This document shows, in pieces, positions 2,599 through 27,271 of a DNA stretch of 27,271 nt (position 1 is the stretch's first letter; each line of letters opens with the position of its first letter). Location: IMG/VR virus record IMGVR_UViG_3300040801_003594, positions 1 to 27,271 of that record; one strand, given 5' to 3'. The translations under genes were made by a program, and so were the position numbers. Source of the stretch: a virus. The notes under the pieces were generated by a model that saw only the letters and a program-made list of their open reading frames with translations, was not told where the DNA came from and did not search any database.

Positions 2599-3030
2599 AT
2601 GGATAATCCCATTATCAAGCCAATTAAAAAAAAAGGACATATTTATCAGCTTGTCGAGCCATATCTTTTTGATTTTTCAATGTATGGTGATAATTTCAGG
2701 CTTTTGATTAAGAAGGGGTATACTTTTGATGGTGCTTCGATACCATCAGTTTTTTGGGGTTTTCCTCTTATGCTTTCGCCGGCACATCCTCGAATCATAC
2801 TTGGTGCTATGATCCATGATCTTTTTTATGATACAAACGGATATATAAACAAAAGCCCATTTGGACATCTTAGTAAAGCTTGCGGATGTGGATGGTATGA
2901 GTATTCAGACAAGATTTCTAAGATAGATGCTGATCTTTTGTTTCACGCTATCAACAAAAAACAGGGTATGGATATTGTTAGACGTAATGTCACATATTTG
3001 GCAGTAAGTATTTTTGGAAGGTATCAATGA
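2599..3030 (+). CDS. DUF1353 family protein (143 aa)
   Basis: The start at ATG 2599 follows GAGGTAAAC; the frame from 2575 would begin inside the previous gene. The segment GYTFDGASIPSVFW, followed by HPRIILGAMIHDLFYD, matches the DUF1353 pattern (DGASIP...HDxxY) common in phage structural regions. Its biochemical role is unknown. A cysteine pair lies in ACGCGWYEY. The stop overlaps the ATG of the NeuB-like gene (ATGA), so the two are probably translationally coupled. Confidence 0.7.
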   Translation: MDNPIIKPIKKKGHIYQLVEPYLFDFSMYGDNFRLLIKKGYTFDGASIPSVFWGFPLMLSPAHPRIILGAMIHDLFYDTNGYINKSPFGHLSKACGCGWYEYSDKISKIDADLLFHAINKKQGMDIVRRNVTYLAVSIFGRYQ

Positions 3031-3944
3031 AAATTGTATTAGATGTTGGAAGTAATTTTGAAACTATTAATGATTGTTTTGAATCAGCCAAAAAAGCCAA
3101 ACAACTTGGAGCAGATGCTATTAAGTTTCAATCTTATACATCGAAAGATTTGTATGGGTTTGACGATGTTGTTAAAGATGGGATATCTCCTGATTGGTTT
3201 GCGCCAATTGCTGCGGTTTGCCAGCAAGAAGGAATCGAGTTTATGTGTTCTGTCTTTAACCCTTCTTTGGTTAAGGTTCTTGATCCATTCGTCAAAACCC
3301 ACAAAATAGCGTCTTCTGAGGTTAAAAACAAAGAGTTGGTAGCAGAGATCAAAAAAACAAAAAAGCCTGTGTATGCGTCAACAGGTGGTGTCCCTTTTGA
3401 TTCTTTACAAAGATTGGTTTCAACGTTTGGCAGAAATCGTCTTACCCTGCTTTACTGTGTTATTGATTACCCGTCAAGGACACATGCTCTTGTTAATATT
3501 CCTAATATGAGGAAAAAGTATAACATCGATATTGGATACTCAGACCATTCGCTAGATATCTACGAAGCGCCAATGTCAGCGCAAAGGCATGGAGCTACTG
3601 TCCTAGAAAAGCATTTTAAGATTCGAGAGTTTAATAGTAATGATAATGCTCATGCGCTTAACCTTGTCCAAACTATGGCTATGATCGATCATCTTCATAC
3701 TATGAGCCAGGAATATAAAACTGCATCTGAGATCAATAATTCATATGCTGTAACTCGCAGGTGCGTTGCTACAAAGCTTATAAAAATTGGTGATACCCTT
3801 AAATATCATGACAACTATGAATATGTCAGAGGATCTCCTGACGCGCGAATGTCCGTGAGATCTTACGATGATCCAAATGGACAAACAGCAAAGCGTGTTA
3901 TTTATGTTGGTGAGGAAATAGTCAGGAAAGACTATAAAAATTGA
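3027..3944 (+). CDS. NeuB-type nonulosonic acid synthase (SpsE/PseI-like)
   Basis: NeuB-family enzymes condense phosphoenolpyruvate with an N-acetylated 6-carbon sugar to make sialic, legionaminic or pseudaminic acid. Visible family motifs are KFQ (33-35), KIASSE (93-98), STGG (118-121), YCVIDYPS (143-150), GYSDHS (170-175) and EKHF (194-197), in the order of the TIM barrel. A short SAF/antifreeze-like domain covers about 243-304 (RRCVATKLIKIGDTL). At 305 residues it is shorter than the usual ~340, and the N-terminus (DVGSNFET) departs from the common EIGxNHNG. It starts at ATG 3027 with GGAAGG upstream, overlapping the previous stop. It lies between the two terminase genes, far from the sugar operon at 23-27 kb. 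The exact sugar cannot be told. Confidence 0.85.
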   Translation: MKIVLDVGSNFETINDCFESAKKAKQLGADAIKFQSYTSKDLYGFDDVVKDGISPDWFAPIAAVCQQEGIEFMCSVFNPSLVKVLDPFVKTHKIASSEVKNKELVAEIKKTKKPVYASTGGVPFDSLQRLVSTFGRNRLTLLYCVIDYPSRTHALVNIPNMRKKYNIDIGYSDHSLDIYEAPMSAQRHGATVLEKHFKIREFNSNDNAHALNLVQTMAMIDHLHTMSQEYKTASEINNSYAVTRRCVATKLIKIGDTLKYHDNYEYVRGSPDARMSVRSYDDPNGQTAKRVIYVGEEIVRKDYKN

Positions 3945-3969
3945 CATTAAAACCGGATGGATAGATTAA

Positions 3970-4017
3970 ATGGATCGGAAAGATATAGAAAAAATGGATC
4001 GGAAAGATATAGAAAAA
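3970..4017 (+). repeat. Perfect 24-bp tandem duplication including ATG
   Basis: Two adjacent identical 24-base units encode MDRKDIEK twice, at 3970-3993 and 3994-4017. The lack of any difference between copies implies a recent duplication or slippage event. It creates two equivalent start codons with nearly the same local context. Confidence 0.9.
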
Positions 4018-4173
4018 ATGATTGGTAGAGAATTGACATATAAAGAGATGATTGCACTAGAAATTGGGCAAGATCTTTATGAGAGATCAGAAAATATAAT
4101 TTATAAAAGCTTTGATCCTGAATTTTCTAACAAGATATTTGATGCAATAAAAGATGATCAATTGTTTATTTAG
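3970..4173 (+). CDS. Small acidic protein with duplicated start (67 aa)
   Basis: The first eight residues (MDRKDIEK) are repeated exactly, followed by MIGRELTYKEMIALEIGQDL. Because the duplicated unit contains the ATG, translation could begin at 3970, 3994 or the Met codon at 4018. The product is helical and charged, with no recognised family or membrane segment. It sits between the NeuB-like gene and the large terminase gene. The absence of a strong Shine-Dalgarno leaves the start undecided. Confidence 0.6.
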   Translation: MDRKDIEKMDRKDIEKMIGRELTYKEMIALEIGQDLYERSENIIYKSFDPEFSNKIFDAIKDDQLFI

Positions 4174-4273
4174 ATCCTTTTTCAAGGATAAAAACTACAA
4201 ATAATCAAAAAAAAGCTTAAGATTAACTATTTATTGTAAAAATATTCTTAATAAAGGGCATTACGGATACAAA

Positions 4274-5575
4274 GTGATATTCAAACCGCACTCTGAAAAA
4301 CAAAACAGGATCATCTTTAGTGATAAAAAGTTCACGATTGCTGGCACTGGTATTCAGTTTGGCAAAACACTATCAGGTGTCGTTTGGCTCAAAAGGTTTA
4401 TGCATAAATTTACCGATAAGAACGACAATTTCATCATAACGTCACCAACATACAAAATTTTAAATCAATCTACGTTGCCGCCTTTTTTAAAGTTTAATGG
4501 CGACATGGGAAAGCTTGATAAAAAAGACATGGTTTTTAAGATCCATAACGGTGGTTCAGTTTGGATTCGATCCGGCCAGAATCCCGATAGCGTTGTTGGT
4601 ATCACCCAGGTTAGAGCTATTTTATGCGACGAAGGCGGTTTGTACTCAAGATATTTTTGGGACAATATCCAGGCAAGATCATCTTTTTCATCTTGTCCGG
4701 TTTGTATTGTGACGTCTCCATATTCAAGAAACTGGCTATGGTCTGACTTTATCAGGAAAGTGGAACAAAAAGATCCCTATATGCTCGACATGTGCGAGTA
4801 TGTCAAAGCAGCAAGCTATGAGAACCCATACTTTCCAAAAGCAGAATATGACCAGCGTAGACTAACAATGGATCCACATAGGTTTGCGATGATCTTTGGG
4901 GGTAATTTTGGAAGGATGGAAGGCCTTGTTTATAAAAACTTTGACGAGGAAACGGATGTCGTTGATCCGATTTTTTTTGGTGATGGTACAGAATACTTTG
5001 GCGGTATCGATTGGGGTTATACCGATCCTATGGTCATAAAGATACGAGCCGTTACGAAATCTAGCTATCATTATCAGATAGCGGAATGGTATAAGACGCA
5101 GCAGACCATAAGAGATGTTGTGGATATGTGCAAAACATACAACGCCATTTATGGGAAAGTGATTTATCTTTGCGATCCATCTAGACCAGAATACATCAAA
5201 GAATTGAATGCTAATGGGATCATCGCCTATCCTGCGAAAAATGACATACGGCTCGGCATCGATTATCATTATGATCTGATAGCTAACAAAAGGTTTAAGA
5301 TATTTCGAAACACAAGCCCACATACGCTTGATGAATATTCGATGTACCATTATCCTGAGCCAAAAGATTTAAAACCAGACCAGAGCCAAAAAGACATGCT
5401 TCCGGTTGATGTTAACAATCATACTTGTGACGTTGACAGGTATATAACTTTACATACTTATAACTTTGATAAAAAGAGAAAACGTATTATACTAAATGAT
5501 ACATCTGGAATCAAACAAGCTTTACCTCTCGTTATTGATCCAGACATGAAAAAACTTTTGAAAACAAACGTTTAA
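4274..5575 (+). CDS. Terminase large subunit
   Basis: This is the DNA-packaging motor: an N-terminal ATPase and a C-terminal RNase H-like nuclease that cuts concatemeric DNA at the portal. The ATPase has a Walker A-like loop ending GIQFGKT (26-32) and a Walker B AILCDE (115-120) with catalytic Glu120. TSP at 57-59 and 147-149 are plausible coupling motifs. The nuclease has GIDWGYTDP (Asp246), LCDPSRPEY (Asp301) and NNHTCDVDRY (Asp386/388), the expected acidic cluster. The length of 433 is normal. It starts at GTG 4274 with GGAT upstream, and the FmdB-like and portal genes follow at once. Confidence 0.92.
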   Translation: MIFKPHSEKQNRIIFSDKKFTIAGTGIQFGKTLSGVVWLKRFMHKFTDKNDNFIITSPTYKILNQSTLPPFLKFNGDMGKLDKKDMVFKIHNGGSVWIRSGQNPDSVVGITQVRAILCDEGGLYSRYFWDNIQARSSFSSCPVCIVTSPYSRNWLWSDFIRKVEQKDPYMLDMCEYVKAASYENPYFPKAEYDQRRLTMDPHRFAMIFGGNFGRMEGLVYKNFDEETDVVDPIFFGDGTEYFGGIDWGYTDPMVIKIRAVTKSSYHYQIAEWYKTQQTIRDVVDMCKTYNAIYGKVIYLCDPSRPEYIKELNANGIIAYPAKNDIRLGIDYHYDLIANKRFKIFRNTSPHTLDEYSMYHYPEPKDLKPDQSQKDMLPVDVNNHTCDVDRYITLHTYNFDKKRKRIILNDTSGIKQALPLVIDPDMKKLLKTNV

Positions 5576-5584
5576 GGATAAAAA

Positions 5585-5947
5585 ATGCCATGCTACCCGT
5601 ATCGGTGTAGTTGCTGCAAAAAAGAGTTTGATGTCTTTAAGCGAATTTCTGAAATAGATCTTTTTGAAACATGTCCCGATTGTGGGCAAACTTGCAACTC
5701 TGAAGATCGACTTATCGCAAAAAGCAACATCGATCCTGACAACTATGAACCTGAGTATAACCCTGGTCTTGGCATGGTTATTAACTCTAAGGCTCATTAT
5801 CGCAGAGTTGTAAGAGAAAAAGGGTTGGAAGAGATTGGTAACGAGCCCATTGAAAAGATCGAAAAAGAATTTGCGAAAAGACGAGAAGACAAAAGAGCAG
5901 CTAGCTACCGAAAATTGTACGAACCTTATGAGGTTAGATCGAGATGA
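5585..5947 (+). CDS. FmdB-type zinc-ribbon protein (120 aa)
   Basis: The N-terminus follows the FmdB putative regulatory zinc-ribbon pattern: PCYPYRCSCCKKEFDVF (Cys8 and Cys11) then CPDCGQTC (Cys30 and Cys33), so four cysteines probably bind one zinc. The remaining 80 residues are charged and helical. Genes of this type are common between the large terminase and portal genes of phages, where their role is not established; assistance in packaging or head assembly is a guess. It begins at ATG 5585 after AAGGA, and its stop overlaps the portal ATG (ATGA). Confidence 0.75.
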   Translation: MPCYPYRCSCCKKEFDVFKRISEIDLFETCPDCGQTCNSEDRLIAKSNIDPDNYEPEYNPGLGMVINSKAHYRRVVREKGLEEIGNEPIEKIEKEFAKRREDKRAASYRKLYEPYEVRSR

Positions 5948-7776
5948 GAGAGACTTTTGGTGGATCTGATTTATTAGAACAAGATAAGCTTGTCGATGGA
6001 GCACATGTCGATCAAAGCGAGGAAAACAGGGAAAAGGTCAAAGTTCTTTTATCTCAGTTTTTCAAATGGAAGTCTCACCGCGAACAGTATTCTAAAAATT
6101 GGATGGAATACTATAAGTTTTTCCGCGGTGCTCAATGGGATAGTCAAAGACCATCGTGGAAGTCATCCGAGGTTGTAAACCTCATCTGGTCAGCAATTCA
6201 AAGCCAGATACCGCTTCAGACAGATGTTCGGCCAAAGTTTTCTTTTCTCCCACAAGAACCTTCTGATATGCTCTTTGCATCAATCCTTGAAAAAATAGCC
6301 GATAGCGAATGGGAGAAATACAATTGGCTTAGGGTTGTCTTTGAAGTGATCCTTGATGGCTATATCTACGGCACTGGCTTTAGTTCTATGAACTATGATC
6401 CAGATATCGATTATGGTATTGGCGCAGCGGTTTATAAATCAGAAGATCCTTTCTACTGCTATCCTGATCCAGATTGCAATGATATCAATGATTCAATCTC
6501 GAGAGGTTTTTGGTATGTCCGCCCGATGACTACCTCTAGGCTCAAGTCAAAATATCCAAAGTTTGCAAACAAGATCAAAGGCGATGTCATAGATTTTATC
6601 GGTAAGCAAAGAGCCGATGTTAAATCATCTGGAACGTATGCGGAAAACAATACCGACAAAAACATGCCTGAGTACATGAGTTATAGCGCCACATATGATT
6701 GTAAGATCGAAAAGACTTTGGTGTTTGAGGGTTTTTTAAAACCTTCTGATATGGAAGAGATTGAAGAGGATGTGGAAGGCGAAAATGGCGAGACAAAAAA
6801 ACAATATACTATCAAGAAAAAACACCCAGAAGGACGGCACGTTGTAATAGCTAATGGCTTGCTTCTTTTGGATGAGGAAATGCCGTATGAAGACGGACTT
6901 ATCCCGTTTTCTCGTTACAATAATTACATACTTAGTAGAGAATTCTTTGGTGTAAGTGAGATCGAACAGCTTAAACCATCTCAAGTCGTATTCAATAAAA
7001 TACTTTCCTTTGCATTGGATTCCATGGCATTAATGGGTAACCCAATTTGGATATCCGATGATCCACAACTAGACATATCAAACCTCACCAACAAACCTGG
7101 ACTAGTAGTGCCAAAAAGCCCAGGTTCTACTGTTACACGAGAGATGGGAGTACCGCTTAACCCAGGATTTATGCAGATTCTTGATCGGCTTGTAGGCTGG
7201 TTTAACGATCAGGCAGGACAATCTGAGTTTTCAAGAGGAAACACAGAAGGTGCGGTTACTGCGGCTTCGGCTATTGAACAGCTTATCTCGGCATCGAGAA
7301 CCAGGATAAGACAACGGCAAAGAAACCTAGATGAGTATTTAAAAACGGTAGGAAGGCAATACGCCAACCGAGTTTTTGAGTTTTATAGTGTTCCAAAGAT
7401 CTATCGAATTACGAACGATGATGGTTCTAAGATGTTTATGAAGATGAGCATTGAAAACCAGGAAGGCGAAAATGGCGAGGCTGTTAGGATCGCCAAGGTT
7501 ACTCCATACAACGAATCGAAAACAGGTGAGATCCTTCCAGGAAGGCAAGAAACCCTTATCATCAAGGGAAATTTCGACATCAGGGTTAAAACTGGATCTG
7601 ACCTACCGTTCGAGGCAACGGATAAGGAAAGAAAGGCTTTGGCGTTATTTGATCGAGGGATCATAGACGAGGAAGAGGTTTTGGACCAGATCAACATGCC
7701 AAACAAAGAAAAGATATTGCAGCGTTTAGCCGAAAGACAGCAGATGCTAGCACAACAACAACAACAGGGGGCATAA
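5944..7776 (+). CDS. Portal protein
   Basis: The 610-residue protein lies between terminase and scaffold, the standard portal position, and resembles portals of short-tailed phages. Features include an N-terminal acidic/helical region, EVILDGYIYGTGFSSMNYDPD (about 132-152), a PDPDCNDINDS segment, and a helical EGAVTAASAIEQLISASRTRIRQRQRN near residues 435-460 that fits the crown/wing helices. Twelve copies would form the channel for DNA entry and exit. The C-terminus is Gln-rich (MLAQQQQQGA), encoded by CAA repeats. It overlaps the preceding gene by 4 bases. Assignment rests on position, length and pattern. Confidence 0.85.
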   Translation: MRETFGGSDLLEQDKLVDGAHVDQSEENREKVKVLLSQFFKWKSHREQYSKNWMEYYKFFRGAQWDSQRPSWKSSEVVNLIWSAIQSQIPLQTDVRPKFSFLPQEPSDMLFASILEKIADSEWEKYNWLRVVFEVILDGYIYGTGFSSMNYDPDIDYGIGAAVYKSEDPFYCYPDPDCNDINDSISRGFWYVRPMTTSRLKSKYPKFANKIKGDVIDFIGKQRADVKSSGTYAENNTDKNMPEYMSYSATYDCKIEKTLVFEGFLKPSDMEEIEEDVEGENGETKKQYTIKKKHPEGRHVVIANGLLLLDEEMPYEDGLIPFSRYNNYILSREFFGVSEIEQLKPSQVVFNKILSFALDSMALMGNPIWISDDPQLDISNLTNKPGLVVPKSPGSTVTREMGVPLNPGFMQILDRLVGWFNDQAGQSEFSRGNTEGAVTAASAIEQLISASRTRIRQRQRNLDEYLKTVGRQYANRVFEFYSVPKIYRITNDDGSKMFMKMSIENQEGENGEAVRIAKVTPYNESKTGEILPGRQETLIIKGNFDIRVKTGSDLPFEATDKERKALALFDRGIIDEEEVLDQINMPNKEKILQRLAERQQMLAQQQQQGA

Positions 7777-7777
7777 A

Positions 7778-8035: not shown

Positions 8036-8042
8036 GTGAAAC

Positions 8043-8886: not shown

Positions 8887-9807
8887 ATGTCATTAACAGA
8901 TCAGTTAACAAGCATTACCAGAAATCATATTGTTCCGAAGCTATACGACAATATATTTGATAGCAATCCTACCCTTGCAAAGTTTAAGAGCTCGGGCCGA
9001 TATGTTTCACAAAATGGCGGAACAACTATTGACGTACCGTTGAACTATGCGCAGACAACATCTAGCGGTTGGTATTCCGGTACTGAAACTTTACAAACTG
9101 CTGATAACGAAAATATCACCAAATCTTCTTATTCTTGGAAGTCAGCTTATGCTAACATTTCCGTAGCAGAGGAAGACAAGCTTAAGAATGGTGGAGATCT
9201 TGGAGTTATCAAGCTTTTGGCATCAAAGGCTATGATCGCAGAAAAAACATTAGCTGATATCCTTGGCACAGGTATCTTTTCCGATGGTACGACAGCAAAG
9301 TCAATCGTTGGTTTAAGAGATATTGTTGCTACTGATCAAACGGTTGGTGGCATTTCGCAGAGTACATCTAGCTGGTGGCAAGGGAACGTTGATTCAACAA
9401 CGACTACTCTAACCATCTCTGCCATGAATACTCAGTTTCAAAACGCAACGATTGGATCAGATGCTCCTGATTACATCGTGACCACAAGAGCCTTGTATAA
9501 TCTTTTTTATAACCTTCTACAGCCACAGCAACGGTTTTTAGATAAGGACATGGCGAAAGCTGGTTTTACATCTTTGATGTTCAACTCGGCTCCGGTGGTT
9601 ATCGACAGTCATTGTACTGCTGCTCATATGTTTATGCTCAACATGAAATATCTTGGGCTTTACTATCATCCAGAGCGAAACATGTATGCTTCTGAGTATA
9701 TGAAGCCAATCAACCAGGAGGTTTTGGTTTCTCGGATTTTGTGGATGGGTGCTTTGACATCCAGCAATAACAGAATGCATGCTAAATTATCGGCAATCAC
9801 AGCTTAA
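8887..9807 (+). CDS. Major capsid protein (HK97-fold, predicted)
   Basis: It has the strongest Shine-Dalgarno in the region (AAGGAGTGA), as expected for the most abundant virion protein, and follows the scaffold gene. The 306-residue product opens with SLTDQLTSITRNHIVPKLYDNIF and continues with GGTTIDVPLNYAQTT, typical of HK97-type capsid proteins with an N-terminal helix followed by a beta-rich E-loop region. The second half (DYIVTTRALYNLFYNLLQPQ; FNSAPVVIDSHC) matches the usual P-domain pattern. Fold and role are predicted from position, length and sequence character. Confidence 0.85.
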   Translation: MSLTDQLTSITRNHIVPKLYDNIFDSNPTLAKFKSSGRYVSQNGGTTIDVPLNYAQTTSSGWYSGTETLQTADNENITKSSYSWKSAYANISVAEEDKLKNGGDLGVIKLLASKAMIAEKTLADILGTGIFSDGTTAKSIVGLRDIVATDQTVGGISQSTSSWWQGNVDSTTTTLTISAMNTQFQNATIGSDAPDYIVTTRALYNLFYNLLQPQQRFLDKDMAKAGFTSLMFNSAPVVIDSHCTAAHMFMLNMKYLGLYYHPERNMYASEYMKPINQEVLVSRILWMGALTSSNNRMHAKLSAITA

Positions 9808-9822: not shown

Positions 9823-10293
9823 ATGGCGTATATTTCTGCAGATCCCGTAGTTTTCTACGGCAAATCTCATGTCACGGCTACTTTGAGCTCAAAGCATCCT
9901 GACGTTGGTACAATAAAAACCTTTGAAGATGGTAACACCTATGTTTGGGCTTATAACGAGTCTGAATCCGATATAAACCCAGGTTATTTGGCTCAGCTTA
10001 ATAGCGCAGCGACTGGTATGTCTGTCACTGTAACTAATGCGACTAATACTGGTCGTCCAGTAGGCGCAGTAAAACACGCTACATTGACCACAAACACATA
10101 TGGTTGGTTACTAAAAAGAGGTTTTGGAACAATTGAAATGAATGCTACATCAGGAACAATTGCTACCAGAGCTAATATTTTTGTTGGCGTTAATGGTGTT
10201 GGTGCTGTGACAGGTAGTGGTGAAGGACCAGTTGGTTATGCTTTAACTGCAATTGTTTCATCAGCTTCTGGTGAAGCTTATTTTAGTATTTAA
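9823..10293 (+). CDS. Putative capsid decoration/cement protein (156 aa)
   Basis: The preferred start is ATG 9823, which has GGGGG upstream; the TTG at 9808 is an alternative. The protein is small, beta-rich and full of Thr, Ala, Ser, Gly and Val (TGMSVTVTNATNTGRPVGA), with no cysteine. Directly after the major capsid gene, such proteins often bind the capsid surface. It lies immediately before the Maf-like glycosyltransferase gene, and with many surface-type Ser/Thr it is a leading candidate glycosylation target. No family was recognised with confidence. Confidence 0.6.
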   Translation: MAYISADPVVFYGKSHVTATLSSKHPDVGTIKTFEDGNTYVWAYNESESDINPGYLAQLNSAATGMSVTVTNATNTGRPVGAVKHATLTTNTYGWLLKRGFGTIEMNATSGTIATRANIFVGVNGVGAVTGSGEGPVGYALTAIVSSASGEAYFSI

Positions 10294-10319: not shown

Positions 10320-11342
10320 ATGAAAAAAGTAAGACAGGTTTTGTTAGAGCTCCAGCCATACATCAATAGTGCTCCGATCTCTCATGGTGATGCGCACAAT
10401 CAAGCTTGCACCAATGATAACGCTACGATTGATAGGTGGGCTCAGCAATGGCTTTCCCAAATCAGATCAAATCATGCTTCTTATGGTCCATTTTCACAAC
10501 GATCTGTGGGGTCTTTGTACGGTGAGATACAAGGTGCTCCTACGGTTATTGTTGGAAGTGGACCATCTTTAAAAGAAAATGCTCATCTTTTGGTAGAAAA
10601 ACCAGAAAACATAAGAATTATATCATGCTTACACAACTTTCATTATTTGGAGGATTTAGGCGTTGACGTTGATTACTATGTGACTTTGGATGCCGGTGAG
10701 TTGACCATCAACGAAATCTCAGAAGGTGGTTTGAAATCAGAAGATGAGTATTTTGAACGAACGAAAGACAAGAAGCTTTTGGCATTTATCGGGACGCACC
10801 CAAAGCTTTTAGAAAAATGGCAAGGTGAAATCTATTTCTTTAACGCACCTGTGCCTGATGAGGCTTACACAAAAGAGGTAGATGAAATAGAACCTTTTCA
10901 TATCTATGTTGAATCCGGTGGGAATGTTCTTGGCGCTTCGATGATGTTAGCAAAAGGTATTCTCGGCTCTCAGATATCTATTTTTATCGGTGCTGATTTT
11001 GCTTTTTCTGACAGCGAAAAGATAAGCTTTCATGCTTGGGATTCAAAATATGATAAGGATCTTGGCCATTACATCATGGTTCCTTCCATTTTTGGGCATC
11101 GTCTTAGAACCTGGCAAAGCTATTATAATTTCAAACTTTGGTTTGATGTTGTGGCTCAAAGAATACCAGGGATCTATATCAATGCTACTGAAAATGGATG
11201 CCTTGGAGCATATCGAGAGGGTAACATCTGTCATATAAGACAGATGACATTAAAAGAATGTTTGGACATGTTTTCAGTTCACACAATTAAAAAACAAGCC
11301 TGTCTTGATCCATCAAACGATAGGCGAATTATTTTAATCTGA
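10320..11342 (+). CDS. DUF115/Maf-type glycosyltransferase homologue
   Basis: Maf proteins transfer pseudaminic or legionaminic acid from CMP donors to Ser/Thr of flagellins; the DUF115 core also occurs in other enzymes. Matches to the family are VIVGSGPSL (76-84), DVDYYVTLDA (116-125), GGNVLGASMMLAKGILGS (200-217), IFIGADFAFS (221-230) and YINATENGCLGA (286-297), which correspond to the nucleotide-binding core and the 'NATEGG' segment. At 340 residues it is essentially the core without the long extra domains of flagellar Maf proteins. The ATG follows GAGGATGATTTGAG. It lies among head genes rather than flagellar genes, so its acceptor is probably not flagellin. Activity is inferred. Confidence 0.75.
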   Translation: MKKVRQVLLELQPYINSAPISHGDAHNQACTNDNATIDRWAQQWLSQIRSNHASYGPFSQRSVGSLYGEIQGAPTVIVGSGPSLKENAHLLVEKPENIRIISCLHNFHYLEDLGVDVDYYVTLDAGELTINEISEGGLKSEDEYFERTKDKKLLAFIGTHPKLLEKWQGEIYFFNAPVPDEAYTKEVDEIEPFHIYVESGGNVLGASMMLAKGILGSQISIFIGADFAFSDSEKISFHAWDSKYDKDLGHYIMVPSIFGHRLRTWQSYYNFKLWFDVVAQRIPGIYINATENGCLGAYREGNICHIRQMTLKECLDMFSVHTIKKQACLDPSNDRRIILI

Positions 11343-11978: not shown

Positions 11979-12380
11979 ATGCCAAATGTAAAAGTAATTA
12001 ATATGAATAGTTTTGAATACTCCGAGATGTTTAACGGTGTCATGATAAAGATACCAGCTGGACAATCTATCACAATGGAATACTTTGAAGCTAACCAGTT
12101 TCTTGGGAAAATGAATTCTCTAAGTTTTGATAAAGATGGACGTATTGATCCTAGAAGCTATAAGATGCTCAAAATTGAGCCTGATGACGAAAAGCTAGCG
12201 CTTGAGGAAATAAATAGAACGAATAGCACAGATGAGAAATCAAGCGTTTTCGTCTGTCACGCTTGTGGGAAAGAGTTTAGAACGAAAAACGGACTTTTAA
12301 AGCACATCAAAGGATCTCATATTGAGGCTATGTCTGATAAGGATGCCCGTGATGAGCTATTAGATGACGAGGATGTCTGA
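11979..12380 (+). CDS. Neck-region protein with C-terminal C2H2 zinc finger (133 aa)
   Basis: Residues 1-70 form a small beta-type domain (IPAGQSITMEYFEANQFLGK), a pattern seen in phage neck-region proteins. A complete classic zinc finger follows: Cys93-x2-Cys96-x12-His109-x4-His114 (CHACGKEFRTKNGLLKHIKGSH), then an acidic tail (DARDELLDDEDV). Single C2H2 fingers are uncommon in bacteria and may bind DNA, protein or simply brace a short domain. The stop overlaps the next ATG (TGATG). Function is unknown; a virion or DNA-contacting role at the connector is speculative. Confidence 0.65.
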   Translation: MPNVKVINMNSFEYSEMFNGVMIKIPAGQSITMEYFEANQFLGKMNSLSFDKDGRIDPRSYKMLKIEPDDEKLALEEINRTNSTDEKSSVFVCHACGKEFRTKNGLLKHIKGSHIEAMSDKDARDELLDDEDV

Positions 12381-12820: not shown

Positions 12821-13249
12821 ATGGCAGATTATACGACAACTTTTGTAAATACCCTTCGGGTTTATGGTGGTTCTGAAACCAACCGATGGGGATCTTTTAC
12901 ATGGGGAGTTGACAATTGGGGTACTACCCAGGATCTAGCTTTGTCCGTAGCCCATTTGATTTCTAATACGCTTGATATGTCCTCAACGGTTGGTAAGAAC
13001 GTATCACATGGATACACAAATATCTTTGGGCTTTCCTCAACGGTTGGTAAGAACGTATCACATGGATACACAAACGAGATGTCAGTTACAAACTCATTGA
13101 CATCGTTACATCTTTTAAATGGTGACTATTACTACAGGTTTCCAGGTGGGATAAACTTTGTAGGGAAAGTTTCAACTTCATTTACACTAAATTCAATTAC
13201 AACTAGTGCATGGAGTGAGGTTACTTTTACAACGACAACGTGGAGTTGA
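12821..13249 (+). CDS. Small repeat-containing structural protein (142 aa)
   Basis: Residues 23-34 read WGSFTWGVDNWG, a pattern that recurs in the nozzle-like protein encoded from 13904. Residues from 54 and 72 carry a duplicated segment (SSTVGKNVSHGYTN). The rest is Ser/Thr-rich and beta-like, ending TTTTWS. No Shine-Dalgarno beyond a weak purine stretch precedes ATG 12821, 3 bases after the previous stop, so coupling is likely. No family is recognised; a minor tail or neck component is inferred from context. Confidence 0.55.
   Translation: MADYTTTFVNTLRVYGGSETNRWGSFTWGVDNWGTTQDLALSVAHLISNTLDMSSTVGKNVSHGYTNIFGLSSTVGKNVSHGYTNEMSVTNSLTSLHLLNGDYYYRFPGGINFVGKVSTSFTLNSITTSAWSEVTFTTTTWS
12980..13074 (+). 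repeat. 54-bp-period direct repeat (two copies)
   Basis: Identical 41-base segments occur at 12980-13020 and 13034-13074, separated by 13 different bases, giving an 18-codon period in frame. Identity at all wobble positions indicates a recent duplication within the 142-residue protein. Confidence 0.9.
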
Positions 13250-13253
13250 TAAA

Positions 13254-13895
13254 ATGGCTTTAACTGTTTCTGATCTGATGGAACGTGCCCGTCAGAGATA
13301 TAATGCTGTGGGAGATGACTTTTTTTCTGATAAAATGTTAAGAGATGCAATATTTGATGCTCAAAGTGATCTTGCTAAAGAGGGTTGGGTTATCGAAAAA
13401 ACCCTTGAGACAACATCGGTAGCAGATCAAAGAGAGTATACCTACCCAGATAATACCCTTGCAATAAAAGAGGTTCGTTACGATAGCGATAAGCTTTGTA
13501 AGGTCACCTTAAGAGATGATCCAAAGACATCAAACGATGATCCAACCGGTACACCAGCAGACTATGCCATTTGGGATGAGGTTATCTTTTTGTTTCCTAC
13601 TCCCGACACAACTGGCGAAACCATCCAAATCAAAGTTTATAGTTATCCGCAAGATATAACATCAAATACAGATAGCATTGAGGTTCCACAAGAATATCGT
13701 GAGGATATTATAAACTATCTTAATTTCATCATGGCAACAAAAGATCAAAACTTTACCCTTGCAGATAGACTGCTTTCTCGGTGGGAAACAGCCATAGATA
13801 GAGCGAGAAGGCAGCGTCAAAGAAGACAACATGGTGATGATTTTTATACTGTACGGGATTGCTACTTTTCATCATCCAACATACCTCAAACGTAG
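13254..13895 (+). CDS. Head-to-tail adaptor (P22 gp4-like position)
   Basis: This 213-residue protein starts at ATG 13254 (GGAG upstream) with ALTVSDLMERARQRYNAVGDDFFSDKMLRDAIFDAQSDLAKEG, the helical opening of phage connector/adaptor proteins that bind the bottom of the portal. It continues with EYTYPDNTLAIKEVRYD and DEVIFLFPTPDTTGETI, characteristic of this group. The C-terminus is highly basic (RARRQRQRRQH). The order portal...adaptor...nozzle matches short-tailed phages. Role is inferred from sequence pattern and synteny. Confidence 0.75.
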   Translation: MALTVSDLMERARQRYNAVGDDFFSDKMLRDAIFDAQSDLAKEGWVIEKTLETTSVADQREYTYPDNTLAIKEVRYDSDKLCKVTLRDDPKTSNDDPTGTPADYAIWDEVIFLFPTPDTTGETIQIKVYSYPQDITSNTDSIEVPQEYREDIINYLNFIMATKDQNFTLADRLLSRWETAIDRARRQRQRRQHGDDFYTVRDCYFSSSNIPQT

Positions 13896-20924: not shown

Positions 20925-22571
20925 ATGGCATATCCAAGCGTAACCTATATATTTGCGAATGATACCGTAGCTGATGCTTCAGAGGTTAATAGCAATTTCA
21001 CCGATATTTTAAATGGTTTTTCGGACGGCACAAAAGATTTAAATATGAATGCCGGAACGTTTGCCGGTGCGGTTATTTGTAACGCAAATGTAACGATCGG
21101 AAACGCTACGTCTGATGACTTAACGGTTACCTCAAGACTTGCAAGTGATCTTATCCCAAAAACGACAAATATTTATGATCTCGGTTCTAGTTCTTTGTAT
21201 TATGCTGAGGGTTATATAAACAAATTATGTGTTGGTGGTACATCTAGTCATGCTTTGACAATTACAGAATCCAGTAGTACGTCACAATTAGCATTAATAA
21301 GAACAGGAACCGCTACCGGTGGTGTTCGCTTGGTGACCGTTAATGGTGGTCTCATTGTTGGCACTGGCTATGATACATACATGGCAGGTGGCGCAACCGC
21401 AATGACCATCGATGATTCTGCAAATGTTTGTATTGGCACAGCTAGCCCGCTATCAGCGTTGCATATATATAAGGATGTCCCAACCATAAGACTTACCGAT
21501 ACTAATTCTACTGATCGTGCTACTGCAACCGCACTTATTGATGCATGGGACAGAGACGTAAATAATCTAGGTATCATTGGTTGGGGTAGTGAACATTTAT
21601 TTATATCCAATTATTGTACTAATGGTAATTTAGTGTTTGCTACTAATACCGATACTCGAATGGTCATTGACAGCAACGGTGATATAACCTGCGCAAAAAG
21701 TCTTTCTATAACTCAAGACTTGATTGTTAATACAGATACTTTATTTGTTGACCAGAGTGCTAATAGAGTTGGTATTGGTACAGATACTCCTGATTCCAAA
21801 GTAGAGATTTCTACCGGTACTGGCAACACATTAAAACTATCTAATACGAATGTTGACGGTGATACGACTTTGGTATTTGAAGATACAAACGATACAACAG
21901 CTAATTTTACTATGGGTACTGATGGGAGTGAAGACGCTTTTAAGATAGCTTATGGCAGTAGTGGCGATCTCACAACTAATACAAGAATGACCATAGACAG
22001 CAGCGGTAACGTGGGGATTAATACGAGTAGTCCGGACAGTGCATTACAAGTTAATGGTGCGATTAATGGGAATATCAACGCAAAAATTAATGAGCTTGTT
22101 AGATCTATCCCATTCAATCCAACAACATGGGAGACAGGGCCACAAGGATCTGGAAGTGGTGCTTTCCAAGGAGGCGTTCTACTTCCGAACGGCAAAGTAT
22201 TCGCTATTCCTCGCAGCTATACAGGCACCAACACGATTTACAACCCGGCTACTAATGCATGGGAGACAGGGCCACAAGGACCTGGAAGTGGTGCTTTCTT
22301 AGGAGGAGTTCTTCTTCCTAATGGCAAAGTATTCGCTATTCCCTTTAACTACACAGGCACCGATACTATCTATAATCCTGTGAGCAACGCGTGGGAGACA
22401 GGCCCGGCAGGTCCTGGAAGCAGTGCTTTCGTAGGAGGCGTTCTACTTCCGAACGGCAAAGTATTCGCTATTCCATATAACTACACAGGCACCAACACGA
22501 TTTATAGCCCAGGTGTAACAGGATGGCCATTTGGAGATTGGATGCTCCATTCATTTTTTAACAAATTGTAA
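20925..22571 (+). CDS. Tail fibre with C-terminal kelch-like repeats (548 aa)
   Basis: The N-terminus (AYPSVTYIFANDTVADASEVNSNFTDI) is a typical fibre/attachment start. The middle is beta-rich with repeated 'VGIGTxxP' pieces (NRVGIGTDTPDSKVEIS; GNVGINTSSPDSALQVNG), as in trimeric tail fibres. Residues 402-533 are three 44-residue units with W-E-T-G-P...LLPNGKVFAIP...YTGTNTIYNP, the kelch/galactose-oxidase beta-propeller pattern, followed by a 15-residue tail. No self-cleaving chaperone (S74) motif is present. The tip probably binds the host receptor. It starts at ATG 20925 after TAGGAGA and closes the virion block. Confidence 0.75.
   Translation: MAYPSVTYIFANDTVADASEVNSNFTDILNGFSDGTKDLNMNAGTFAGAVICNANVTIGNATSDDLTVTSRLASDLIPKTTNIYDLGSSSLYYAEGYINKLCVGGTSSHALTITESSSTSQLALIRTGTATGGVRLVTVNGGLIVGTGYDTYMAGGATAMTIDDSANVCIGTASPLSALHIYKDVPTIRLTDTNSTDRATATALIDAWDRDVNNLGIIGWGSEHLFISNYCTNGNLVFATNTDTRMVIDSNGDITCAKSLSITQDLIVNTDTLFVDQSANRVGIGTDTPDSKVEISTGTGNTLKLSNTNVDGDTTLVFEDTNDTTANFTMGTDGSEDAFKIAYGSSGDLTTNTRMTIDSSGNVGINTSSPDSALQVNGAINGNINAKINELVRSIPFNPTTWETGPQGSGSGAFQGGVLLPNGKVFAIPRSYTGTNTIYNPATNAWETGPQGPGSGAFLGGVLLPNGKVFAIPFNYTGTDTIYNPVSNAWETGPAGPGSSAFVGGVLLPNGKVFAIPYNYTGTNTIYSPGVTGWPFGDWMLHSFFNKL
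22128..22523 (+). repeat. Three 132-bp kelch-like repeat units
   Basis: Units begin with TGG at 22128, 22260 and 22392, and a fourth TGG falls exactly in phase at 22524. Units 1 and 3 share silent choices in their GGVLLPNGKVFAIP stretch that unit 2 lacks, while units 1 and 2 share the start (GGGCCACAAGGA). This patchwork suggests exchange between units rather than simple divergence. Confidence 0.9.
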
Positions 22572-22739: not shown

Positions 22740-22778
22740 TATGCAAGCAATTATCTTAGAAATAAAGAAGGATTTTTA

Positions 22779-23057
22779 ATGAATTTTGCAAGTATTTTGA
22801 TTATAGTTACACAATCGTTTCTCCTAATGATCATTAGTTTTTGGTTTTATCGAAGGATCTCTTTCTATAATAAAAAGATTTCTTTGATAAAATCAAAAAA
22901 TAAAGAGTTACTAAAGAGGATAAATGATATAGAAACTAAGGAAGTTTTGACAAAAGATGCTAAGGATTTGTTGGCTGACCTATGTCATGGGGATGCAATA
23001 GTTAAAGTCACGCCAATAAATCCGCAGCATATATTTGAATATAGTCCAAGGAGTTAA
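22779..23057 (+). CDS. Membrane-anchored coiled-coil protein (92 aa)
   Basis: A hydrophobic segment at about residues 4-24 (ASILIIVTQSFLLMIISFWF) is followed by a basic stop-transfer (YRR), a short coiled coil (about 33-55, KKISLIKSKNKELLKRINDIE) and a C-terminal segment ending VKVTPINPQHIFEYSPRS. The architecture resembles an inner-membrane spanin or a small membrane-anchored phage protein. Similar C-terminal 'VKV...P...F..SPR' ends occur in other phage proteins near tail genes, from memory. No partner spanin is visible, so lysis function is only a possibility. GAAGGA precedes ATG 22779; the next gene begins 2 bases after the stop. Confidence 0.65.
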   Translation: MNFASILIIVTQSFLLMIISFWFYRRISFYNKKISLIKSKNKELLKRINDIETKEVLTKDAKDLLADLCHGDAIVKVTPINPQHIFEYSPRS

Positions 23058-23059
23058 AA

Positions 23060-23944
23060 TTGAATATTTTGATTATTGGTGGTACTGGCTCATTAGGCCA
23101 AAAACTTATTGAACACTACTACAATGAAAAAAACCGCATTGTAATCTTTTCAAGAGATGAACTAAAGCAAGCTAACCTAAAAAAAAAGTATCCATATTTA
23201 GAATGTATTATAGGCGATATTAGAGACAGTGAATCTGTTTCATCTGCTTTTTCAAGAGAGTTAAAGTATGACATCGTTTTTCACACAGCAGCTTTAAAGC
23301 ATGTTGATCTTGGAGAGGAAAACGTCAGCCAGTTTGTTAAAACAAACTATTCAGGTACAAAGATAGTTTTTGATTACGCTTCATCATATGGATCAGAAAA
23401 GTTTGTTTTTTTCACGACAGACAAGGCTGTTTTTCCGATAAATGCTTATGGTATGTCAAAAGCTTTGAGCGAAAAATACTTACAGCAAACAAGGTTTTTG
23501 GAAAAGATGCCTATTTATATCTTTCGTTGGGGAAATATTCTTGGATCAAGAGGATCTTGCCTTGATTATTTCAAAGAATGTTTAATAAACAAAAAACCCG
23601 TCAGGATCACTGATCTTGAATGCACAAGGTTTTGGCTACTTTTGGATGATGCAATAGACTTTGTGACGACTGTTGTATCTACTGAGGATGTCCTTTCGTA
23701 TAACGATGTTTATATCCCAGATATGAAATCATCTTCTATATCTGATCTTTTGAAGTCTATTCATATGGTTTTAAAAAACAAAGGTCATGATCTTTTAGAT
23801 TTCAATAAATGTTATGTAGAAACTGGTTTAAGACCTGGTGAAAAGGTGCATGAATCTATTTATCCAGATTCAGATTTGAATAGTGATAATTTTCCAAAAT
23901 ATAATATTTTTGAACTAATGCTTAAAATTGAAAGGATGATATGA
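23060..23944 (+). CDS. PseB/CapD-like UDP-sugar dehydratase/epimerase (SDR)
   Basis: This extended short-chain dehydrogenase probably acts on a UDP-N-acetylhexosamine as a 4,6-dehydratase, the first step of pseudaminic or legionaminic acid pathways. Motifs: NAD(P)-binding GGTGSLG (7-13), SRDELKQ (31-37), GDIRD (52-56), HTAALKHV (75-82), TTDKA (119-123) with the Asp-Lys pair typical of PseB/FlaA1, the Tyr130-x3-Lys134 catalytic pair, and LRPGEKVHE (257-265). Length 294 is slightly short for the family. The start is TTG 23060 with AAGGAG upstream; the stop overlaps the next ATG (ATGA). Stereochemistry (4,6-dehydration with or without C5 inversion) cannot be told. Confidence 0.85.
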   Translation: MNILIIGGTGSLGQKLIEHYYNEKNRIVIFSRDELKQANLKKKYPYLECIIGDIRDSESVSSAFSRELKYDIVFHTAALKHVDLGEENVSQFVKTNYSGTKIVFDYASSYGSEKFVFFTTDKAVFPINAYGMSKALSEKYLQQTRFLEKMPIYIFRWGNILGSRGSCLDYFKECLINKKPVRITDLECTRFWLLLDDAIDFVTTVVSTEDVLSYNDVYIPDMKSSSISDLLKSIHMVLKNKGHDLLDFNKCYVETGLRPGEKVHESIYPDSDLNSDNFPKYNIFELMLKIERMI

Positions 23945-24606
23945 ATATTTTTTTATACGGTGGTGCTGGTAATATGGGGAAAAGGTATCAGGCCATTCTT
24001 TTACATCAAGGTGTTAAATATCATATCATTGATCCCGAACATGGCTATAACGAGCCATACGATATATTTCCAGACGGAATTATTATAGCAACACCCACAG
24101 AAACCCATTTTGATTTGATACTTGATTGTCATGGCCAATTTCCTGACGTACCTATCTTATGTGAAAAGCCAATCTCAAAAGAGTATGACGAGATAAAAGA
24201 GCTAGTTAATACTGATGGTCTTAATCTTACGATGGTTAATCAGTATGAGTATGCTATTTATTGCAAGCCACAAACATTAAAAAACGGTATGACTTTTTAT
24301 GATTTTTACAATTCTGGAAAAGATGGTATTTTATGGGATGTCATTAATATTGTTGGGCTACACAAAAACAAAAGTAATCCGGTATTGATTGCTAATAATA
24401 GCCCATTTTGGACATGCTTTATTGATGGTCGAATACTGGATATTACAGATGTAGAAAGAGGTTATCATTACATGATTGATTGCTGGATATCCTCTTTGGA
24501 ATGGACGGATCAAGAAAAGATTGTTCAAAAAATACAAAAAGACAAGGAATATATTTTAGAAGCACATAGACGAATATTTAAACGATTAGAGGTTTCCAGT
24601 GATTAG
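23941..24606 (+). CDS. Short Gfo/Idh/MocA-type oxidoreductase
   Basis: The N-terminal Rossmann fold is clear: GGAGNMGKR (7-15), IIIATPTETH (47-56) and the family signature CEKPIS (74-79). At 221 residues it lacks roughly 100 residues of the usual C-terminal alpha/beta substrate domain, which seems shrunken rather than cut, since the frame is intact. In nonulosonate and sugar-surface loci such enzymes oxidise or reduce a nucleotide-sugar intermediate. It overlaps both neighbours (ATGA on the left, 8 bases on the right). Substrate unknown. Confidence 0.75.
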   Translation: MNIFLYGGAGNMGKRYQAILLHQGVKYHIIDPEHGYNEPYDIFPDGIIIATPTETHFDLILDCHGQFPDVPILCEKPISKEYDEIKELVNTDGLNLTMVNQYEYAIYCKPQTLKNGMTFYDFYNSGKDGILWDVINIVGLHKNKSNPVLIANNSPFWTCFIDGRILDITDVERGYHYMIDCWISSLEWTDQEKIVQKIQKDKEYILEAHRRIFKRLEVSSD

Positions 24607-25330
24607 AGTAGCCATAGGAATCCAAACGAGGCTTAGTAACACGAGGTTACCTGAAAAGAGCCTTTTAAAAATTGACAACAAAGAGATTATTTTCCACATG
24701 ATTGATAACGTCAATCGTGGGATAGAAAAGATTAATAAGCACAAGTTTAAAAACAATACAGAATGTTTGATTTATATCTTGGTTCCAGAGGTTGAAGAGG
24801 CTTTCTGGGTAAAGCATCTTTCAAGCTACAAAAACAAGATTGCAAAAGTTATCAGTGGTGACATGGATAACGTCTTTTCGAGGTATGAAAAGCTTTTGGA
24901 TTACGATTCTTCCTACATCATGAGGCTTACAGCAGATTGTCCTTTCATACCTCATCAGTTAATAACAAAGACGGTTAATACTTGCGTCAATAGTAGGCTT
25001 GATTATCTCTCAAACGTTGATGAGGATATCAGAACGATGCCTGACGGGTTTGATGTTGAGATGATGAGTAGGGAGGCTTTTAATTGGTTAAAAAGTAATG
25101 TCTATGAAAGCGGTTCAAAGTCAGATCTCGAGCATGTTACAACATTCCTACGAGCTAATAGACAATCGTGGATGAAATTTGGGATCTTGTCTTATGTTTT
25201 TGATTTGAGTGATCATAAGTTTAGCGTAGATACCCCACAGGATTTTGAAAAAGTTGAAAGAGTTTATACTGAAAAAGTTAGAAAAGATATTTTGGCAAAA
25301 AAGAGAGGTGTTGGAGTTTATGAGTATTGA
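24599..25330 (+). CDS. SpsF-like cytidylyltransferase (CMP-sugar synthetase type)
   Basis: Members activate acidic sugars with CTP. Family motifs are IQTRLSNTRLPEKSLL (8-23, the SpsF version of the nucleotide-binding loop), SGDMDNVFSRY (86-96), RLTADCPFI (109-117), PDGFDVE (148-154), EHVT (178-181) and SVDTPQD (209-215). The GTG start at 24599 overlaps the previous gene by 8 bases, with AGAGG upstream. Length 243 is normal. In this operon it most likely makes the CMP-nonulosonate that a Maf-type transferase would use. The exact sugar is inferred. Confidence 0.82.
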   Translation: MIRVAIGIQTRLSNTRLPEKSLLKIDNKEIIFHMIDNVNRGIEKINKHKFKNNTECLIYILVPEVEEAFWVKHLSSYKNKIAKVISGDMDNVFSRYEKLLDYDSSYIMRLTADCPFIPHQLITKTVNTCVNSRLDYLSNVDEDIRTMPDGFDVEMMSREAFNWLKSNVYESGSKSDLEHVTTFLRANRQSWMKFGILSYVFDLSDHKFSVDTPQDFEKVERVYTEKVRKDILAKKRGVGVYEY

Positions 25331-26531
25331 TTATTCGAAAAATAGGGCTGTCACTAGCATAGCTCAAGGCGCATTGACAAATAGCAAACATTGGGATCGT
25401 TTTATCTATGGTGTTTATCCCACCCACATCTCACATGGTAGAGATTGCTTCTTGTTTGATACGGAAGGGAAAAAGTACATCGACTTTATTTGTGGTCTTG
25501 GTGCCAATCTTTATGGTTACGCCAATCATGCAATTATCGATGAGGTTATCAAATACTCATATCATGGCTCTTGTCATAGCCTTCCTAGTGTGTTCGAGCT
25601 AGACGCTGCAGACGCTGTTAAGAGCATCTTTTATTTTGCTGACAGGGTTAAGTTTGTTAACGATGGATCGAGCGCATGTAGTGCAGCGCTTCTTATGGCT
25701 AGAACATATACTGGTAGAGATCTCGTGTTATCGTCAGGATATCATGGATGGCACAACGAATATGTTGGGCTTACTAATCCTGCTAACGGTGTTTGTGAAA
25801 ATATGAAAGGCGCTATTAAAAAGTATACCGGAATCTCAGATATTGATGATCCTAAAAAGATTGCAGCTATTATCATAGAGCCTGTTGAGTTAGATGATAG
25901 CAACGATCGGATTAATGAATTAAAGCATCTTAGAGAGTTTTGCACTGATAACGGCATTTGTCTTATCTTTGATGAGGTTATTACAGGAATGAGGTACAAA
26001 AAGCTGGCTGTCAGTTTGATGTATGACATAATCCCAGACATAATAATTTTGTCAAAGGCGATAGCAAACGGTGAAAAGATCGGTGTTGTTGCTGGCCGAA
26101 AAGAGATCCTTGATGGTCCTTATTTTTGCTCAGGTACATTTCACGGTCATGTTGGATCGCTTGTCGCTCTAAGGAGAACCCTTCATCTTGCGGCACATAA
26201 CAACTATTATGATGTTACAGATCTTAACGATCGGACAAAACACTTTTTGGGTGAGTTTAATTGGCTAGTATTTCCTCACTTTAAAATCGATGGTTGGGGA
26301 GCCAGGGGAGTATTTAAAGGCGACCAGGTTATCATTGCAAAGTTTTGGCAAGAAATGTGCAAAGCTGGTTTTTTATTTGGACCTAGCTTTTTTTCAAACT
26401 ATCATTTGATTGATCAGTTTGATAAGACATTGAATGCTACGAGTTTGATTATTAACAAGGGTTGGGACAACATTGTGTTGGAAGGTCCATTACCGAGTAG
26501 TCCATTTTCAACAAAAATGAGAAAGGAATAA
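25320..26531 (+). CDS. Glutamate-1-semialdehyde-type class III aminotransferase
   Basis: This PLP enzyme of 403 residues starts best at ATG 25320 (GGAG four bases upstream), inside the end of the previous gene (11-base overlap); an upstream in-frame start at 25245 would overlap it by 86 bases. Motifs are NDGSSACSAALLMAR (phosphate-binding), YHGWHN (141-146), FDEVITGMR (217-225) and LSKAIANGEKIG with PLP-lysine Lys246. Haem-pathway homologues isomerise glutamate-1-semialdehyde, but in sugar operons relatives probably aminate a keto-sugar. Pseudaminate pathways normally use a DegT/PseC-type aminotransferase, so its presence hints at a different sugar. Confidence 0.82.
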   Translation: MSIDYSKNRAVTSIAQGALTNSKHWDRFIYGVYPTHISHGRDCFLFDTEGKKYIDFICGLGANLYGYANHAIIDEVIKYSYHGSCHSLPSVFELDAADAVKSIFYFADRVKFVNDGSSACSAALLMARTYTGRDLVLSSGYHGWHNEYVGLTNPANGVCENMKGAIKKYTGISDIDDPKKIAAIIIEPVELDDSNDRINELKHLREFCTDNGICLIFDEVITGMRYKKLAVSLMYDIIPDIIILSKAIANGEKIGVVAGRKEILDGPYFCSGTFHGHVGSLVALRRTLHLAAHNNYYDVTDLNDRTKHFLGEFNWLVFPHFKIDGWGARGVFKGDQVIIAKFWQEMCKAGFLFGPSFFSNYHLIDQFDKTLNATSLIINKGWDNIVLEGPLPSSPFSTKMRKE

Positions 26532-26536
26532 TTGAT

Positions 26537-26722
26537 ATGAGTTTGGATACTGAAAAAAAACAAAAGATAAAAGAGTTGATAATCCATAAGAAAGATCTTG
26601 ATAAAAAAGCATTTGAATTACGATCTGAGTTGGATGCTTTTAATAAAGAGATTAGGGATGTTTTGGGTGTATCAGAACAAGAACATGTATCCTATGACGA
26701 TCTACTTTTAAAGGTGCTATGA
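26537..26722 (+). CDS. Small coiled-coil protein (61 aa)
   Basis: A charged protein, helical over most of its length (KKQKIKELIIHKKDLDKKAF then ELRSELDAFNKEIRDVL), with an acidic C-terminus (HVSYDDLLLKVL). It follows the aminotransferase gene after 5 bases, with AAGGAATAA upstream. No family is recognised. Its position inside the sugar operon suggests co-expression and no specific role. Confidence 0.6.
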   Translation: MSLDTEKKQKIKELIIHKKDLDKKAFELRSELDAFNKEIRDVLGVSEQEHVSYDDLLLKVL

Positions 26723-26784
26723 CGGCTTTAATAGTTTTTGTAATTTTATGGATATTTTGGATTTTATGGGTGACTTATGATTGA
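26719..26784 (+). CDS. Mini single-span membrane peptide (21 aa)
   Basis: The frame MTALIVFVILWIFWILWVTYD starts at ATG 26719, overlapping the previous stop (ATGA), and ends at TGA 26782-26784, overlapping the acetyltransferase gene by 8 bases. Except for its last two residues it is entirely hydrophobic and Trp-rich, consistent with a single membrane span. Overlaps on both sides are the main evidence. Such short frames can arise by chance; it may be a coupling leader. Confidence 0.35.
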   Translation: MTALIVFVILWIFWILWVTYD

Positions 26785-27271
26785 TCATACTTATGGCGTG
26801 TTTTTGGGTGAGATTAAATATTGTAACCTCGAACAATATAAAGGATGGCGAAACAATCCTTTGATCAGAAATTGGTGTCGTCAGACCGGTATTCTCACTC
26901 GTCAAAATCAAGAGGATTGGTATGAGAGAATTCACAAAGATCCTACCATTCAGATGTTTGAAATCCGAACAAATGATGATGTGTGTTTAGGTGTCTGTGG
27001 TCTAACTTCGATAGACCGGCAAAACAGATCGGCAGAATTTTCGTTGTACATTTGTCCTGATGAAATGGGAAAAGGCTTTGGTGAAAAGGCTCTTAAAACT
27101 TTGCTTCATTATGGTTTTTCTGATCTTGGGCTTAATCGCATATGGGGCGAAACGTTTGACGGAAATCCTGCTTTGGCACTATTTCATAAATTGGGGATGG
27201 TTACGGAAGGAAGGTTAAATCAATCATACTGGAAAAAAGGACGATTCATCGACAGTCATATCGTTGCTATG
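26777..27271 (+). CDS. GNAT acetyltransferase, PseH/RimJ-like (3' partial)
   Basis: The frame opens at ATG 26777 and runs to the window end without a stop (165 codons seen). GNAT motifs are the beta-strand/A motif FSLYICPDEMGKGFGEKALKT, with acetyl-CoA loop EMGKGFG, then FSDLGLNRIWGETFDGNPAL and FHKLGMVTEGRL. PseH-type enzymes in this superfamily acetylate the 4-amino group of the sugar intermediate in pseudaminate synthesis. Here it would acetylate the product of the aminotransferase. The substrate is inferred from context; the C-terminus lies outside the window. Confidence 0.75.
   Translation, partial: MIDHTYGVFLGEIKYCNLEQYKGWRNNPLIRNWCRQTGILTRQNQEDWYERIHKDPTIQMFEIRTNDDVCLGVCGLTSIDRQNRSAEFSLYICPDEMGKGFGEKALKTLLHYGFSDLGLNRIWGETFDGNPALALFHKLGMVTEGRLNQSYWKKGRFIDSHIVAM

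Follow-up and report, generated by a model that had tools for sequence, protein, structure and literature searches.

The window analysed here spans an entire IMG/VR record, a linear 27,271-base fragment that lacks the distal end of the genome. Its open reading frame listing, combined with Pfam, PHROGs and NCBIfam scans, placed a tailed-phage virion module around a set of sugar genes, with the following principal features:

3027–3944, + strand: NeuB/PseI/SpsE-type nonulosonate synthase, 305 residues, directly upstream of the terminase module
4274–5575, + strand: terminase large subunit (phrog_2, E 2e-33)
5944–7776, + strand: portal protein (phrog_156, E 1e-53)
8887–9807, + strand: major capsid protein (MCP), i.e. 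the major head protein (phrog_9953, E 1e-61)
9823–10293, + strand: predicted capsid decoration (cement) protein and candidate acceptor, between MCP and Maf
10320–11342, + strand: Maf-domain (PF01973) glycosyltransferase, 340 residues, putatively transferring nonulosonate to protein
13206–13895: head adaptor
22779–23057, + strand: small protein with probably one transmembrane segment, at the head of the sugar operon
23060–23944, + strand: PseB/SpsM-like UDP-GlcNAc 4,6-dehydratase (PF02719, Polysacc_synt_2, E 5e-67)
23941–24606, + strand: short Gfo/Idh/MocA-like oxidoreductase, 221 residues (GFO_IDH_MocA, PF01408, E 6e-8)
24599–25330, + strand: SpsF-like CMP-sugar cytidylyltransferase (CTP_transf_3, PF02348, E 5e-10)
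25320–26531, + strand: class III (GSA-type) PLP aminotransferase (Aminotran_3, PF00202, E 1e-28)
26537–26722, + strand: ORF of 61 residues between aminotransferase and GNAT
26777–27271, + strand: PseH-like GNAT N-acetyltransferase, cut by the contig end (PF13302, E 1e-16)

The first-pass annotation had described the synthase, the Maf-like protein and the operon from 23060 to 27271 as one pathway split over three places. All of them are open frames at these positions, the families it named are borne out by HMM matches well above the Pfam cut-offs with intact catalytic motifs, and the three-place layout holds and is conserved across the whole lineage described below. Further genes of the window are a DUF1353 protein (PF07087; 2575–3030) that adjoins the synthase gene immediately upstream, a small lineage-conserved protein with a C2H2 zinc-finger-like motif between Maf and head adaptor (11979–12380), a virion-region protein with near-perfect tandem repeats of EKQRGFLTGEREAxQLFSSGEA (15802–16809), and a tail-fibre-like protein (20925–22571) with three Kelch-like repeats in its C-terminal third (ETGPxGxGSxAFxGGVLLPNGKVFAIP).

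Judged by its sequence, the protein encoded at 3027–3944 is a member of the NeuB family: It matches PF03102 with E 4e-42 (144.6 bits vs a cut-off of 22.1), and its closest PDB match is the pseudaminic acid synthase 8h2c (E 9e-23). The residues K33, Q35, H174, E194, K195, H196 and R268 are kept in 14 lineage homologues, and the conserved C-terminal arginine is intact; we take the catalytic lysine and glutamate and the metal-binding histidines to have the roles that they have in N. meningitidis NeuB. The protein stays below the NCBIfam equivalog cut-offs of both NeuB_NnaB (127.9 vs 399.65 bits) and PseI (117.9 vs 340.25 bits).

The operon proteins present a similar picture. The PseB-like protein has its closest PDB match in H. 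pylori 2gn4 (E 9e-41) and retains an intact T-x9-Y-x3-K triad (TDKAVFPINAYGMSK; the pattern sought was T-x9-M/Y-x3-K), while it reaches 183.3 bits against TIGR03589 with an equivalog cut-off of 407.75. The glycines of the nucleotide motif and an EKP motif of the Gfo/Idh protein are conserved in 14 homologues. For the SpsF-like protein, whose R11, R16, K20 and D113 are conserved among the lineage homologues, the closest PDB match is the cytidylyltransferase 6oew. The aminotransferase most likely starts at the ATG at 25320, overlapping the SpsF stop, in a frame that opens at 25245; D243 and K271 (numbered from 25245) are conserved in 21 homologues, and the match to the GSA aminomutase 5i92 (E 1e-30) agrees with class III, PF00202, and not with the DegT type of PseC and LegC. 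The GNAT protein scores 67 bits against TIGR03585 (PseH), under the cut-off of 93.1. Because the scores fall below the equivalog cut-offs of NeuB_NnaB, PseI, PseB and PseH, our assignment stops short of the exact sugar. Homologues of the small protein at 22779–23057 occupy the equivalent position in three relatives (G012, G014 and G017), and small ORFs of this kind precede PseB in most long contigs; a further small membrane-like ORF often lies downstream of GNAT in relatives. These membrane-like ORFs may encode lysis proteins or belong to the pathway. Similarly short ORFs also fill the position of 26537–26722 in several relatives.

The Maf-like protein matches PF01973 (MptE-like/Maf domain) with E 4e-21 (75.9 bits vs a cut-off of 34.6), and in a sequence-profile search its sole PDB match was the Magnetospirillum Maf glycosyltransferase 5mu5. 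An AF2 model built with 52 phage homologues (pLDDT 95) has the same protein as its top solved fold (Foldseek E 2e-10; VIA Z 22.5, rmsd 2.9, 239 residues aligned), ahead of archaeal MptE (M. jannaschii HPPK) with Z 14.9 over 194 residues and of the sialyltransferases GT42 CstII and ST8SiaIII (Z 9.6–9.7), which come next in the ranking. The phage protein covers residues 238–513 of 5mu5 only: The flanking domains, and with them the three-domain architecture of canonical flagellin Mafs, are absent from its 340 residues. Since 5mu5 outranks MptE, only its central domain is matched and the profile search finds it alone, the PF01973 protein is, on the strength of the model, a single-domain Maf-type transferase. 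Thus, both NeuB-like and Maf-like protein fall into the families expected of them and not into unrelated ones. In C. botulinum, Maf transfers nonulosonates onto Ser/Thr of flagellin, with promiscuity towards both donors and acceptors (PMC11339370).

Directly before the Maf gene lie two genes for candidate acceptors. The protein encoded at 9823–10293 is predicted to have the fold of phage capsid cement proteins: The best-ranked fold matches of its AF2 model (pLDDT 85) are phage capsid-associated, namely HFTV1 (VIA Z 12.8), the T1 capsid (10.9), Pam3 (10.5) and the TW1 stabilising protein (8.9). The MCP carries a Ser/Thr run at about residues 170–176, after a WW motif, with at least four consecutive Ser/Thr in 61 of 69 lineage sequences; the run is a possible acceptor site. 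We compared both genes with five outgroup phages of about 30% MCP identity (Mx8, BUCT555, ppBjS10J-1 and two Manatee Spring genomes): The decoration gene has no counterpart there at the sensitivity used, and the Ser/Thr run is absent from the five capsid proteins. Ser/Thr enrichment of the decoration protein was discarded as acceptor evidence because its share of conserved Ser/Thr columns does not exceed that of the MCP.

The relatives of the window appear to form a widespread, uncultured lineage of short-genome, podovirus-like phages. A search with the Maf protein alone yielded 25 loci. All seven of their contigs of at least 35 kb have NeuB just before the terminase together with cytidylyltransferase and aminotransferase, and in six the latter two form, with PseB, an operon downstream of the tail-fibre gene; PseB has been relocated upstream in G012. 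As an independent set of relatives we collected 80 loci with an alignment of the capsid protein. Among the newly analysed loci of this search, all 64 that extend at least 1.8 kb beyond the MCP carry the Maf-like gene there, after the decoration gene, and NeuB lies upstream of the terminase in 22 of the 25 with at least 3.5 kb before it. Likewise, 55 of 78 newly fetched NeuB-bearing viral loci adjoin the terminase of the lineage. NeuB, Maf and the operon are absent from the five outgroup phages, and across 84,980 species genomes the Maf search returned just one 3.5-kb MAG contig. Contamination by a bacterial operon was ruled out by the recurrence of the same genes in the same virion context on many independent contigs.

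Whole-contig Pfam scans of 21 long contigs (31–40 kb) identified the aminotransferase in 21/21, NeuB in 20/21, PseB in 18/21 and the cytidylyltransferase in 18/21, plus one more (G020) by a lineage profile. The full order PseB, Gfo/Idh, SpsF, aminotransferase, GNAT is found in 12 of them; six have one or two operon members moved, divergent or missing, and two (G028 and G029) have just the distal portion of the operon. Not every member of the lineage has Gfo/Idh and GNAT. There is one clear loss of NeuB, PseB and SpsF, in G031 (loci L142/L145), which retains Maf and may use a host sugar. Also present in this contig are the Ser/Thr run of the capsid protein, a divergent gene resembling the aminotransferase and, near the terminase, a putative FkbM-like methyltransferase.

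The sugar genes are under purifying selection, like the capsid genes: In close pairs, dN/dS is 0.07 for NeuB, 0.04 for Maf and 0.04 for the MCP, and in another pair it is 0.10–0.14 for PseB and aminotransferase and 0.14 for the tail-hub gene. Values of 0.04–0.14 rule out pseudogenes. In a tree of viral sequences only, without bacterial ones, a 100/100 branch sets the lineage NeuB apart from 21 other viral NeuBs, and the distances of Maf and NeuB correlate with those of the head genes (Mantel r 0.38–0.68). Together with the conservation, this is consistent with a core function that is passed on vertically.

Two unrelated, larger viral contigs (L224 and L227) have PseB, class III aminotransferase, SpsF, Gfo/Idh, NeuB and GNAT in a single cluster, so that the scattered genes of the lineage probably form one pathway as well, which is further supported by the conserved layout. 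The loci L208–L232, to which these two belong (contigs up to about 155 kb), have nonulosonate clusters with PIG-L, formyltransferase-like and PhyH genes. It had been claimed for the window that its families cover the entire route to a protein-bound nonulosonate. Our results do not support this claim as it stands: None of the 21 long contigs encodes a UDP-sugar hydrolase, whether PseG-type (PF04101) or NeuC-type (PF02350), a class III enzyme takes the place of the DegT aminotransferase, and the Gfo/Idh protein is left without an assigned step. The UDP-release step would thus come from the host or from an unrecognised enzyme.

The position of a Maf-type gene right behind the capsid genes suggests that the sugar coats the phage's own particle, and the lineage-wide conservation of this layout upholds the first-pass argument that a synthase and a transferase amid head genes favour a virion target. 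We therefore consider it probable that a CMP-nonulosonate is synthesised by the phage and its sugar O-linked to the phage's own capsid or decoration protein. We computed gene identities, predicted transferase and decoration folds, conservation, synteny and purifying selection, and infer each catalytic step, the sugar and the acceptor. Synthesis would take place during the late phase of infection: The PseB-like enzyme would convert UDP-GlcNAc to a 4-keto-6-deoxy sugar, which would be aminated by the class III aminotransferase and acylated at the amine by the GNAT protein. An enzyme unrecognised in the phage, probably the host's, would free the sugar from UDP, whereupon the NeuB-like synthase would condense it with phosphoenolpyruvate to the nonulosonate and the SpsF-like enzyme would produce the CMP form. 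Finally, the Maf-domain transferase would pass the sugar to Ser/Thr residues in one of the virion proteins, with the decoration protein and the MCP, whose genes directly precede Maf, as the likeliest acceptors. For the Gfo/Idh protein, an adjustment of stereochemistry or oxidation state is conceivable.

Could the sugar instead be destined for the host surface? The genes would then serve superinfection exclusion or lysogenic conversion by remodelling the capsule, LPS or flagellum, and Maf would act on a host glycan or protein; prophage nonulosonate genes that alter the host capsule are known in epaA/epaB of A. baumannii (PMC12053666), and an integrase in 7/21 long contigs indicates that some members of the lineage are probably temperate. 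However, the genes lie in the virion module with Maf behind MCP and decoration gene at each of the 64 loci, the sugar genes persist in those contigs, too, in which no integrase was detected, and no flippase, polymerase or lipid-linked transferase was matched among the scanned proteins of the window, which leaves host-surface remodelling unlikely. It is more doubtful still that the operon makes another sugar, for example a 2,4-diamino hexose or an unusual ulosonate, with NeuB as a modified synthase and something other than a nonulosonate being transferred: While the lack of PseG and NeuC, the class III instead of DegT aminotransferase, the extra Gfo/Idh protein and the sub-threshold equivalog scores would agree with this, the intact catalytic residues and C-terminal arginine of NeuB, a cytidylyltransferase of the SpsF type that fits a CMP-ulosonate, and the clustering of equal families with NeuB in L224 and L227 argue against it. 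Similarly improbable is a PF01973 protein that acts as an MptE-like nucleotide/pterin diphosphotransferase or DNA modifier next to nonulosonate genes serving something else, even though the pterin diphosphokinase MptE belongs to PF01973 and shares the fold, and DNA is often the target of phage glycosyltransferases according to PMC12619734, since the Maf fold scores clearly above MptE and is followed by CMP-sialic-acid transferases, 5mu5 is the only profile match and nonulosonate genes accompany Maf in 20/21 long contigs.

We return to the glycosylated virion as the preferred reading. Counting against it are the missing hydrolase, the scores below the equivalog cut-offs, a Maf without the flanking domains of 5mu5, the Maf fold of MptE, the loss in G031, the several operon genes missing from G028 and G029 and the non-universal Gfo/Idh and GNAT. 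The more far-reaching proposal, that capsid nonulosonate glycosylation is a core, vertically inherited trait of the lineage, with a largely self-made CMP-sugar, a single-domain Maf and the decoration protein or the MCP Thr run as acceptor, has in our estimate even chances of being correct.

Sialic-acid-like sugars are known mainly from cell surfaces and flagella. The phage system resembles the flagellin glycosyltransferases of C. botulinum and Magnetospirillum (5mu5) in PF01973 domain, fold and proposed nonulosonate-type donor, but its Maf consists of the central domain only, is encoded behind capsid genes and presumably has a capsid protein as acceptor; flagellin Maf, too, targets a self-assembling structural protein at its Ser/Thr residues (PMC11339370). 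PseB-type SpsM, NeuB-type SpsE and SpsF recur in the legionaminic acid pathway of B. subtilis (SpsM, C, D, E, F, G), which decorates a proteinaceous surface layer (PMC7439481), whereas the phage has a class III aminotransferase, an added Gfo/Idh protein and Maf and lacks the SpsG hydrolase. PseB-, PseH- and PseI-like proteins are shared with the CMP-pseudaminic acid pathway PseB-C-H-G-I-F of H. pylori and C. jejuni, yet the phage has neither a PseC-type (DegT) aminotransferase nor PseG and remains below the equivalog cut-offs. Phage-borne nonulosonate metabolism including a CTP_transf_3 domain is found in prophage epaA/epaB of Acinetobacter baumannii; unlike the present lineage, with its near-whole pathway and a protein transferase amid virion genes, epaAB only modify host-made capsule nonulosonate.

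Virion glycosylation in mycobacteriophages reportedly involves other sugars and transferases, and these phages, unlike what is proposed for the present lineage, are not known to synthesise a nonulosonate of their own. Their capsid and tail proteins are glycosylated by phage-encoded enzymes (Freeman et al. 2023, as cited in PMC12619734). A B. megaterium phage paper was dismissed as a precedent for phage nonulosonates, KDNase occurring merely in its reference list. In the searched open-licence PMC literature there was no case of a nonulosonate synthesised by a phage, nor a nonulosonate-making phage with Maf among head genes, although an earlier description is possible, and among 50,697 phage records tblastn gave no match for Maf and SpsF and one weak match for NeuB. 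Glycosylated virions and Maf/nonulosonate systems are already known separately; what the searched papers and phage records lack is the combination of a nonulosonate pathway and a Maf among head genes in one phage lineage.

If true, this would be a phage group with a self-made, sialic-acid-like particle coat as a core trait and not as an occasional auxiliary gene, which would explain why sugar synthesis takes up about a seventh of a 37-kb genome. Possible benefits of such a coat are a charge shield, receptor mimicry, and protection from grazers or host enzymes. The reading gives a checkable prediction on specific capsid proteins, and it would extend the role of Maf beyond flagella and offer a minimal single-domain Maf for study.
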